The position numbers and the translations under genes were made by a program. Positions 40,741 to 43,798 of a stretch of DNA of 64,000 nt are shown here, one piece after another. This stretch comes from Acidovorax sp. GW101-3H11 (GTDB taxonomy: Bacteria; Pseudomonadota; Gammaproteobacteria; Burkholderiales; Burkholderiaceae_C): contig NZ_LUKZ01000014.1 of the NCBI RefSeq assembly GCF_001633105.1, forward strand, positions 28,420 through 92,419, read 5' to 3'. The number at the start of each line of letters is the position of its first letter. Within the stretch, counting starts at the first letter, position 1. The notes beneath the pieces are model-generated. The model had not been told where the DNA came from, searched no databases, and saw only the letters and a program-made list of their open reading frames with translations.

Positions 40741-41457
40741 TCAATGCGCGCGCATCTTGGCGCGCAGGCGGGCGATGGACTGGCTGTGCAGCTGGCACAC
40801 CCGTGACTCCGTCACGCCCAGCACGGCTGCAATCTCCTTGAGATTCATGTCGTGCTCGTAGTACATGCCCATGATGTGCTGCTCGCGTTCGGGCAGGCTC
40901 TTGATGGCGTTGACCAGCGAGGTCTTGAGGCGCTGGTCGCGCAGCAGCTCGACCGGGTCGGCATCGGCGTCGGCGACATGGCGGTCCAGAAACCCGTCCT
41001 CGTCGTCGTTGCCGTGGGTCATGTCTTCCAGGTACACCAGCTGGGTGCCCCGGACCTTCCCCAGCAGGTTCTGGTAGTCGGGCAGGCTCATGCCCATTTC
41101 GCTGGCGATTTCCGATTCGAGCGGGCTGCGGCCCAGCTTCTGCTCCAGCCTGTGCACCGCGTGTTCGATGTCTTTCTGGCTCTTGCGCGAGCTGCGGCTC
41201 ATCCAGTCGCCCTCGCGCAGCTCGTCGAGCATGGCGCCCCGGATGCGCTGGGTGGCAAAGGTCTCAAACTGAACGCCCTGGGCGACTTCGTAGCGCGACA
41301 GCGCTTCGGCCAGGCCCATCATGCCGACTTGGATCAAGTCATCCAGCTCCACATTGGGCGGCAGCTTGGCGATCATGTGGTGCGCAATTCTCCGTACCAG
41401 CGGCACATGCTGGCGGATCATCGCGTCACGATCGAGCTGGCCTTTGGCGGTGTACAT
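40741..41457 (-). CDS. fliA: RNA polymerase sigma factor for flagellar operon, FliA (sigma-28)
   Basis: 238 residues. Region 2 shows QHVPLVRRIAHHMIAKLPPN and VELDDLIQVGMMGLAEAL. Region 3 follows from about 90 to 160. Region 4 shows LPEREQHIMGMYYEHDMNLK with EIAAVLGVTESRVCQLHSQS. It directs polymerase to late flagellar genes, for which candidate promoters occur upstream of flgM, both flagellins and fliS in this window. It is 27 bases after the FlhG-like gene. Confidence 0.95.
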   Translation of the reverse strand: MYTAKGQLDRDAMIRQHVPLVRRIAHHMIAKLPPNVELDDLIQVGMMGLAEALSRYEVAQGVQFETFATQRIRGAMLDELREGDWMSRSSRKSQKDIEHAVHRLEQKLGRSPLESEIASEMGMSLPDYQNLLGKVRGTQLVYLEDMTHGNDDEDGFLDRHVADADADPVELLRDQRLKTSLVNAIKSLPEREQHIMGMYYEHDMNLKEIAAVLGVTESRVCQLHSQSIARLRAKMRAH

Positions 41458-41484: not shown

Positions 41485-42282
41485 TCAATGGCTCCGGACA
41501 AAATGTGCAGGCATGTCTGCCAAGGTGCTGGAAGGCAGCGCAGTCAGCGATCCGTTCATGGTGCCCGCATTTTCCAGCAGTTGCAAGGCCAGGCGCTGAA
41601 GCTCCTGGGGGTTCTGTGTGGCGATGGTGGTGGTCCGTATGGGGCCCCCCAGGTGGCGCTCGGCGCAGGCCTGCAGCGTCATCAGCTGTGACTGGGCCTT
41701 GCGGCGCTCGGCGGCTGTGTTGCTGTGCAGCAAAGCGGCCACCATGCAGGGCAGCCCGGTGTGCAGGGCAATCTGCTTGAGGCTTTTGTAGCTGGTCATC
41801 ACGCCCGCCGAACCGCCGCCCATCACCACCAGTGGCACCGTGGCCGTGTGGGTCAGCAAGGGCCCCAGCGTGGAGGCGGGCGCGTGGATCACCATCAGGC
41901 CGTAGGTCCTGAAATAGGGCAGCAGGTCCTCCATGGGGGAGCGCGTGGTGTCGCCCGCCTTGCGGCTGAGATGCTGCAGGCCCTTGGCGGCCGGGATCAC
42001 CGCCAGCGAGGACGCGGTGGCCCCCAGGTTCAGCTGCGCGCCGTCGTTCCACGAGGCATGCTGCAGCAGGTGCAGCAGGCCCGGGCTGTTGTCTGTCTCC
42101 TGGGCCGTGCCGTCCAGCACCACCACGGGGTAGCCCAGCCGCTGCAGGCTGGCGCAGATCTGCCAGAGCGTTTCCAGCCCGCTTCCGGCGTTGCCCTGGC
42201 TGACCACTGCCAGCATGCGCAACTCGGCCTGCGGCGTGAAACTGTGCAGGCCGGCGGCCTGGTGAAAACCCAGATCAAGCAT
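41485..42282 (-). CDS. flhG: FlhG/MinD-like protein without a Walker A motif
   Basis: 265 residues in the position of flhG, overlapping flhF by 8 bases. The N-terminal strand and loop read LAVVSQGNAGSGLETLWQIC where true FlhG proteins have a deviant Walker A (KGGVGKS/T). Both lysines are missing. The following strand VVVLDGT keeps one acidic residue, while the Walker B-like strand reads LMVIHAPA, with His where Asp is expected. The fold appears kept but ATP binding and hydrolysis are doubtful. Normal FlhG controls flagellar number with FlhF. The gene symbol is by position and fold; the function may differ. Confidence 0.72.
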   Translation of the reverse strand: MLDLGFHQAAGLHSFTPQAELRMLAVVSQGNAGSGLETLWQICASLQRLGYPVVVLDGTAQETDNSPGLLHLLQHASWNDGAQLNLGATASSLAVIPAAKGLQHLSRKAGDTTRSPMEDLLPYFRTYGLMVIHAPASTLGPLLTHTATVPLVVMGGGSAGVMTSYKSLKQIALHTGLPCMVAALLHSNTAAERRKAQSQLMTLQACAERHLGGPIRTTTIATQNPQELQRLALQLLENAGTMNGSLTALPSSTLADMPAHFVRSH

Positions 42283-43798
42283 CGACCAGCCCCCCTTCGG
42301 TGATGGTGTCGGGAGAGTGCGAGAAGAAGAAGTTCAGGTCGGTGGCCTTGGGGTCGAACGCCGACTTGGCAGGGGCACGCATCGAGGTGCTGATGAGCTG
42401 GTGCGCGTTGGCGCGCTCCCAGTCCTCGGGCACGCGCTGGCCATTGGTCACGCCGCGCAGCACCATCTGGTGGCGGATCAGCGCGTCGATGGCGGGGCCG
42501 AGCTTCACGGCCTCGTCCACCTTGGACAGGATGGCCTGCTGCGAGCCGTCGGTCTTGAACGCGGTGAGCACGTCGTCCAGCGTGTCGCCATGGCAGCCGG
42601 CGTTGAGCACCAAGAGGCGGTTCACGTGGGGCAGGTCCAGCACGTCCAGCATGTCGCGCTTGCGCGGGTCGCGGGGCGCGACGCCGGTGGTGTCGATGAG
42701 CACCATCTTCTTGCCGGACAGCAGGCCCAGCAGGTCCTGCAGTGCGGCGCGGTCATGGGCCAGGTGGGCCACGATGCCCAGCATGCGGCCGTAGGTGCGC
42801 AGCTGTTCGTGGGCGCCCACGCGGTAGGTGTCGAGTGTGATCAGGCCCACGCTGCCGGGGCCGTGGATGCGCGCGCACATGGCGGCCAGCTTGGCCGTGG
42901 TGGTGGTCTTGCCCACGCCGGTGGAGCCCACCATGGCAAAGATGCCGCCTTGTTCGTACAGCGGGGGCTCGGCCTGGTCGGTCTTGAGGTTGCGCTCCAG
43001 CACCTCCATCAGCCAGCGCACCGATTCGGCGGCCGACAGATCTTCAGGCATGCGTTCGAGCACGGCGCGGGCCAGCGAAGGCGAGTAGCCTGCGCGGATC
43101 ATCTTGAGCATCAGGTTGGACTGGATCGGGTTCTGGCGCGCCTGGCCCAGCCAGGCCAGCGTGTTGAAGCGGTCTTCGATCAACTCCTTCATGGAGTGCA
43201 GCTCGTTCATCAGGCTTTGCTGGTTGTTCGACTGGATCAGGTGGGCGCTGGCCGCTTCCTGCCGACGGCGCGGGGGCTCGGGCGGGATGTCCATGGGGAT
43301 GGTGCGCAGCGGGTTGTGGCGCGCCACGGCCACGGCCGGGGCGGGCATGCGTTCGCGCTCCCGTTCAGGCTCCTGATCGCGGCTGCGCTCCGACAGCGTC
43401 GGGGCTTCCGCCGCGCCATGCAGGGCTTCGTGGCGGCGGCGCAGCATGCGCTCACGCACGTAGTCCTGGAAGGACAGCGTGCTCATCGCCAGCTGCTCGG
43501 TGTCTTCCTCCACCGGGTTGCGGCCCAGGCCTGCTGCCGCCGCCTGGCTGGCCAGGCTGGAGCGGGCGGGCTGCGTGCTGCTGCTGCGCGGCGCGCTGGG
43601 GGCCAGCAGCGGTGCGCTGGAGGTGTTGCCTGCACCACCACCGTCCAGCGCCGAGAGCGTGTCTTCGGCCGTCGCCACCACTTCGACGCCGTTGGCCGTC
43701 GGGCGGTTGGACAGGATCAGTGTGCCGTCGCCAAAGGCCATGCGCGCCTTGGCCAGAGCCTCCCGGGAGGTGGGGGCGGTAAAGCGTTTGATGTTCAT
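42275..43798 (-). CDS. flhF: Flagellar biosynthesis SRP-type GTPase FlhF
   Basis: 507 residues. It begins MNIKRFTAPTSREALAKARM, the FlhF B-domain start. A long, probably disordered region rich in Arg, Glu and Pro lies at about 60-190. The N domain follows, then the G domain with the P-loop GSTGVGKT at 291-298 and the TLDTYRVGAHEQLRTYG motif at 321-337. FlhF sets the polar site of flagellum assembly and recruits FliF. Its stop overlaps the start of the FlhG-like gene and its start overlaps the end of flhA by 4 bases. Confidence 0.93.
   Translation of the reverse strand: MNIKRFTAPTSREALAKARMAFGDGTLILSNRPTANGVEVVATAEDTLSALDGGGAGNTSSAPLLAPSAPRSSSTQPARSSLASQAAAAGLGRNPVEEDTEQLAMSTLSFQDYVRERMLRRRHEALHGAAEAPTLSERSRDQEPERERERMPAPAVAVARHNPLRTIPMDIPPEPPRRRQEAASAHLIQSNNQQSLMNELHSMKELIEDRFNTLAWLGQARQNPIQSNLMLKMIRAGYSPSLARAVLERMPEDLSAAESVRWLMEVLERNLKTDQAEPPLYEQGGIFAMVGSTGVGKTTTTAKLAAMCARIHGPGSVGLITLDTYRVGAHEQLRTYGRMLGIVAHLAHDRAALQDLLGLLSGKKMVLIDTTGVAPRDPRKRDMLDVLDLPHVNRLLVLNAGCHGDTLDDVLTAFKTDGSQQAILSKVDEAVKLGPAIDALIRHQMVLRGVTNGQRVPEDWERANAHQLISTSMRAPAKSAFDPKATDLNFFFSHSPDTITEGGLVDA

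Follow-up and report, generated by a model that had tools for sequence, protein, structure and literature searches.

FlhG of other bacteria uses ATP to limit flagellar number, and a small helix of the protein switches FlhF off. The accessible sections of PMC12826062 describe two jobs, in which a glutamine of the helix triggers GTP hydrolysis by FlhF and an ATP-cycling body reaches the membrane, the C-ring and FleQ/FlrA. In the accessible sections of reviews, FlhG is regarded as an ATPase (PMC12826062, from December 2025; PMC7226244). A natural loss of Walker A is notable because, according to the accessible part of PMC7226244, the Walker A mutant K31A of Vibrio alginolyticus FlhG is non-functional and hyperflagellated and a hydrolysis mutant barely matters. 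From excerpts of the respective papers, flhBAFG and fliA are co-transcribed in Burkholderia glumae, with flhF dependent on FlhDC (PMC3885665), and flhG has been scored as present by its position (PMC7064773). Within the accessible sections of the open-licence literature, we found no description of an FlhG without an ATP site in Burkholderiales (cf. PMC8036289, PMC4905959, PMC10241942, PMC2963123).

The window analysed here, a stretch of 64,000 nucleotides from Acidovorax sp. GW101-3H11, carries such a gene next to flhF. We read its product as an FlhG orthologue that has turned into a pseudo-ATPase and would most likely act as an ATP-independent activator of FlhF, an interpretation to which we assign a probability of roughly two in three (0.68).

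The flhG locus and its neighbors

The gene occupies positions 41485..42282 on the minus strand and encodes a 265-residue, FlhG-derived protein with an ATG start and no ATP-binding motif, as assigned from the open reading frame, 11 Acidovorax rows, a profile match to canonical FlhG and dN/dS; the plus-strand reading of the same positions contains a stop. An earlier note had placed the gene in the flhG position and called FlhF normal, and both statements hold. The gene sits on the minus strand directly downstream of flhF, as in FlhG/FleN, and is followed by fliA, which encodes sigma-28 (40741..41457, minus strand; family search). The end of flhF (42275..43798, minus strand; open reading frame and family model) overlaps the start of flhG by 8 nt, and its product is an ordinary FlhF with GSTGVGKTTTTAKLA that matches TIGR03499 at 254.6 bits (cut-off 174.15).

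Near-identical relatives of the window include A. kalamii (98 %; Comamonadaceae, Burkholderiales). The frame is intact in 11/11 relatives, with 265 residues each and no stops, and the dN/dS of flhG relative to the window ranges from 0.047 to 0.227, compared with 0.018–0.161 for flhF and 0–0.075 for fliA; flhG evolves faster than both. It is a real gene under purifying selection, less constrained than its neighbors. A frameshift or sequencing error in the loop, which the earlier note had named as an objection to its reading, is excluded by the 11 intact frames and these dN/dS values. One family relative (L027, genome G012) has a single TAG codon in its matched flhG stretch.

Descent from FlhG and predicted fold

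Searches of Pfam, NCBIfam and PDB sequences with the window protein returned weak or chance matches only. Profile–profile comparison of 40 rows of the lineage with canonical FlhG from outside the order aligned 213 columns at E 1.9e-12, and with the N-terminal helix cut from both sides the match remained at E 9.3e-9; the reversed canonical FlhG profile, used as a control, gave E 0.25–0.26. On this comparison of sequences the window protein descends from FlhG, with common descent along the body. Replacement of flhG at this site by an unrelated gene would fit the lack of a direct family match in Pfam and NCBIfam, but the contrast between the body-only match and the reversed control, together with the existence of intermediates inside the order, makes it scarcely credible.

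The AlphaFold model of the window protein, built from 11 near-identical rows, is poor (pLDDT 46.8, pTM 0.44). Foldseek with this model found nothing at E<=0.001, FleN ranking first at 0.035, and VIA-align placed FleN/FlhG structures, which again speak against an unrelated protein, at seven of its nine highest-ranking rows (Z 7.5–8.6, rmsd 3.9–4.4), which is weak support because Z is near the value reached by models without a clear match. The MinD-like fold proposed in the earlier note is probably kept, on the basis of the profile comparison and helped by the low-confidence model; the Pfam, NCBIfam and PDB sequence searches gave no direct match for it.

Motifs of the window protein

The former Walker A loop (residues 28–38, SQGNAGSGLET; 42169..42201, minus strand; sequence and alignment columns) contains no lysine, as the earlier note had read from QGNAGSGLET: both Walker A lysines are gone, and the deviant Walker A motif KGGxGK[ST] is absent from the protein. 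In the former DxD of switch I (residues 57–59, DGT; 42106..42114, minus strand; alignment) the second Asp is lost. At the Walker-B-like Asp column stands H133, in VIHAPA compared with LIDTAAG (41884..41886, minus strand; alignment). The exchange of a key Asp for His, noted earlier, is real in the alignment and affects two positions, H133 and H7, the latter replacing the D of the N-terminal FlhF-activating (enhancer) helix motif DQAxxLR. This motif reads HQAAGLH in the window protein (residues 7–13; 42244..42264, minus strand; alignment), which departs from the full consensus and keeps the glutamine, Gln8, whose role is taken from the accessible part of PMC12826062. H133 and Q8 are invariant in the 11 Acidovorax rows.

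A C-terminal helix is predicted at residues 225–239 (41566..41610, minus strand) from the low-confidence model, without the aromatic F-h-x-R-L pattern found near the end of canonical FlhG. That pattern occurs in 45/47 canonical genes outside the order and in 0/96 family genes, and is an imperfect proxy for a membrane helix because the canonical genes of the family also lack it (0/3). We file the protein as an FlhG-derived pseudo-ATPase because it is FlhG by descent and lacks the P-loop that distinguishes MinD/ParA ATPases.

Loss of the P-loop lysine across Burkholderiales

We surveyed the gene after flhF in three groups: the family of the window genome, its order (Burkholderiales), and the same class beyond the order. 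The family model detected flhF in 106/150 family genomes, 81/120 order genomes (over the cut-off) and 67/143 class genomes, and the following gene was read at 230 places: 106 in the family, 77 in the order outside the family and 47 outside the order. The family places represent 105 of the 106 FlhF-positive genomes (G016, whose place ends its contig, was left out, and G067 counts twice). The order places come from 77 non-family genomes out of 78 that passed the cut-off (G239, which is cut, was left out). Outside the order, 65 genomes passed it and 47 were read, mainly those with better-scoring FlhF. A protein matching the full FlhG profile follows flhF at 220/230 places, and at three more it is partial or shortened; the ten where no full protein had been read (seven in the family, three in the order) were reread.

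Of the 173 flhF-adjacent FlhG genes fully read in the order, 151 are without the P-loop lysine and four have both Walker lysines, compared with 47/47 outside genes that are canonical at every Walker residue checked. By motif reading, 96 of the 99 family genes lack the P-loop lysine and three are canonical; the 74 genes of the order outside the family divide into one with both lysines, 55 with neither and 18 with the P-loop lysine alone, a few of which (e.g., L251) may be patterns that arose by chance. Counted by alignment column instead, 4/99 family genes and 22/74 of the other order genes have the P-loop lysine. When mapped onto a 100-row FlhF tree (74 from the order, 20 of the 96 from the family and 6 of the 47 from outside), the P-loop lysine label requires nine changes, at least four of them forced by well-supported branches; as regain is unlikely, this implies repeated loss. 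Judged from these alignments, loss of the P-loop is spread through most of the order sampled and is neither a local oddity nor a peculiarity of Acidovorax.

The former P-loop sequence varies between subclades. In a second subclade of the family (L214, L146, L141 and others), a new sequence type, SNPHVAFGGVLLERL, recurs where the Walker loop used to be, and this recurrence hints at a new function for the former P-loop. Such differences among subclades, and the absence from the window protein of both lysines, the second DxD Asp and the Walker-B Asp, weigh against a remodeled site that still binds nucleotide. The first DxD Asp (D57) is present in 94/99 family rows and the fold is probably kept, as a remodeled site would require, and overall we consider continued binding quite improbable.

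A single order gene outside the family has both Walker lysines (L230, genome G186; SSKAGLGKT), with no DxD pair. Three family genomes (G025, G032 and G049) carry a fully canonical FlhG after flhF (L182, L219 and L220). The nearest relative of these three proteins is one outside gene, L285, at 59–64 % identity, and G025 stands apart from G032 and G049 on the rpoB tree; on these two grounds horizontal gain of canonical FlhG is likely, and a horizontal replacement of flhFG in these genomes is possible. All three lack FlhC and the second FlhG-like ATPase described below.

Conservation of the FlhF-activating helix

The helix glutamine is present in 74/74 order genes outside the family and in 97/99 family genes as aligned, or 99/99 after correction, the two misses (L129 and L140) being mis-trimmed rows whose raw reads show Gln; outside the order it is found in 43/47 as aligned. 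Where order genes have no P-loop lysine, conservation is highest at five columns, which hold the D, Q, A, L and R of the helix, although the rows were chosen and trimmed with the helix motif as a guide, which favors conservation of that motif. Within the Acidovorax subclade, H mostly stands in place of D (20 family rows), and R frequently gives way to another residue. Drift of the motif from D to H and from R to H, as in Acidovorax, might weaken FlhF activation. In L140 (genome G135), flhG encodes an insertion of about 60 residues that separates the N-terminal helix from the body.

An order genome from another family (G169) has a natural mini-FlhG of 109 residues from the helix on (L263:1147-1498), in which DQAEGLRRL is fused straight to the C-terminal half (DAYARIK) and the whole ATP half is missing. 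Its frame is open, fliA is next, and it matches the FlhG profile at E 5.9e-24 in two pieces. This mini-FlhG, from one genome, is what an ATP-free reading predicts. Two further stretches cover FlhG only partly (L155 and L249), with the helix present and the P-loop lysine absent, and no full FlhG was read at L191, which ends with its contig, or at L254.

At 5/106 family flhF places there is no flhG (L135, L174, L177, L180 and L221, in G061, G071, G105, G082 and G022), and fliA begins 19–123 nt past the flhF stop. These five losses beside a kept flhF imply that FlhG is dispensable in some lineages, and the flhG-less places speak for a need that is weak or lineage-dependent. They could also be taken to mean that flhG as a whole is a decaying relic that does little, as could its faster evolution relative to flhF and fliA, the TAG in L027 and the absence of a recognizable family match for the window protein. 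A relic is nevertheless improbable given the 11 intact relatives with dN/dS well below 1, the persistence of flhG behind flhF at 220 of 230 places and in partial or shortened form at three, and the conservation of the helix and other columns.

Transcriptional context

FleQ and FlhC were compared in 80 genomes, 32 from the family, 28 from elsewhere in the order and 20 from outside. FleQ-domain matches of 34–72 bits in frames of 477–518 aa were found in 19/20 outside genomes, and the 20th has a match of 33.3 bits in a 228-aa frame only; inside the order 37/60 genomes have weak matches, none above 31.6 bits, so that the gap is narrow at its edge, and the dividing line was set after the scores were known. 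Strong FlhC matches (E<1e-70) occur in 28/32 family genomes, 11/28 other order genomes and 0/20 outside genomes, with weak FlhC matches in two outside genomes and one order genome. FlhDC alone is insufficient to explain the loss, because strong FlhC is missing from 17/28 non-family order genomes and canonical FlhG occurs in none of the 28. By these profile scores, the ATP-dependent transcription client FleQ/FlrA seems to be missing where the ATP site decays, the two being correlated along one common branch.

A second FlhG-like ATPase

The earlier note had also named a second, canonical FlhG elsewhere in the genome as an objection to its reading, and this objection holds in part. Among 15 CbiA-type matches in the window genome, the best against the canonical FlhG profile is a 285-aa protein at C1:404090-404944 (233 bits; the next scores 82), on another contig, with complete ATPase motifs (GKGGVGKT and DADLGLANLD). 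Its best solved relatives are FleN (6.2e-52), then FlhG (1.5e-40) and then MinD (2.9e-31). The gene sits behind a GGDEF gene (Pfam 4.7e-46), and together they form a two-gene unit (L286:6310-7948, contig C1 of the window genome); a GGDEF neighbor is present at 32/32 of the best-scoring second-ATPase loci. The DQAxxLR helix is absent from this protein and its relatives (32 sequences, with one chance regular-expression match), no flagellar genes lie within 15 kb, and flhF is not a neighbor. Thus, by sequence and gene order, a FlhG-like ATPase with canonical motifs does exist elsewhere, but it is FlhG-like only, without the DQAxxLR helix and the flhF neighborhood.

The second ATPase forms a clade separate from flhG and is no recent copy of it. 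Within the family it is found in 90/106 genomes with FlhF and 2/44 without (Fisher p 1.8e-21, which ignores kinship). A kinship-aware test on rpoB with eight well-supported independent pairs gave about 5.5 pairs in the same direction, 0.1 in the opposite direction and 2.4 undecided, with a median p of 0.0625. The 69 genomes of the rpoB set include 15/16 of the FlhF-positive genomes without the second ATPase and only 20/90 with it, a sampling that works against the association. On the rpoB tree G093 sits on an exceptionally long branch, and G131 gave three matches to rpoB; with six poor genomes dropped the median p is still 0.0625.

These observations bear on the idea of a split FlhG, in which the ATPase role has passed within the family to the helix-less second protein and the flhF-operon copy keeps FlhF activation only. 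The canonical motifs of the second protein, its score to the FlhG profile with FleN as best solved match, its constant GGDEF neighbor among the loci compared, its lack of the helix and its co-occurrence with FlhF all fit a split, as does its absence from G025, G032 and G049, the family genomes whose flhF-operon FlhG is canonical. Against it stand 13 other FlhF-positive family genomes that lack the second ATPase, 10 of them with an FlhG lacking the P-loop lysine (one partial) and three without flhG, and two genomes (G061 and G082) in which the second ATPase is present and flhG absent. The separate clade, the position outside the flagellar cluster and the median p for independent pairs also count against a split. 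Close relatives of it are rare elsewhere in the order (2 of 117 genomes outside the family, at 53 and 72 % identity), where the P-loop lysine has nonetheless been lost on a wide scale, so the second ATPase cannot explain the order-wide loss. It may be a partner in the family, and a split of this kind is a possible but rather unlikely account. We likewise regard as unlikely a two-protein FlhG in which the flhF operon supplies an ATP-dead activator and a two-gene unit shared with a diguanylate cyclase supplies a free, helix-less ATPase, tying flagellar number to c-di-GMP via a separate ATP switch.

Proposed function

The reading we prefer is that of an ATP-independent FlhF activator. The N-terminal helix of the window FlhG would still insert into the FlhF GTP dimer, its Gln would trigger GTP hydrolysis, and FlhF would come off, so that FlhG would remain the off-switch of FlhF. 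This switching would proceed without the ATP-gated monomer–dimer–membrane cycle, which could have been dropped, likely because the client FleQ/FlrA is not clearly found in the order, many members of which have FlhDC. The earlier note had suggested a nucleotide-free scaffold or regulator. The loss of the ATP motif from a gene under selection agrees with that suggestion, in which "nucleotide-free" is deduced from motifs, but the kept helix Gln favors FlhF activation over a bare scaffold. Since the K31A mutant of V. alginolyticus is non-functional, the loss of Walker A must have been compensated somehow.

An FlhG without an ATP site in most of the order would amount to a natural experiment separating FlhF activation from ATP cycling. 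One prediction is that, in bacteria lacking FleQ, activating FlhF can by itself suffice to control flagella. Attention is also drawn to an uncharacterized FlhG-like ATPase partnered with a diguanylate cyclase.

Comparison with known systems

The window protein resembles FlhG/FleN/YlxH (PDB entries 4RZ2, 5J1J and 5JVF) in its place after flhF, its body profile, its helix with Gln and, probably, its fold. Unlike them, it lacks the Walker A lysines and the second DxD Asp, has His for the Walker-B Asp, is without the C-terminal aromatic pattern and reads HQAxxLH for DQAxxLR. With canonical FlhG from members of the class beyond the order it shares operon place and body homology, whereas all 47 of those genes keep every Walker residue, and 19 of 20 genomes there have a clear full-length FleQ match, a level reached by 0/60 order genomes. 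The superfamily fold is common to MinD and, as predicted, to the window protein, which has no deviant Walker A; conversely, MinD/ParA proteins have no FlhF-activating N-terminal region, according to the accessible part of PMC7226244. The FlhG-like ATPase with its GGDEF partner is of FlhG/FleN-type sequence and occurs with FlhF in the family, but differs from the window protein in its full ATPase motifs, its lack of an FlhF-activating helix and its separate locus.
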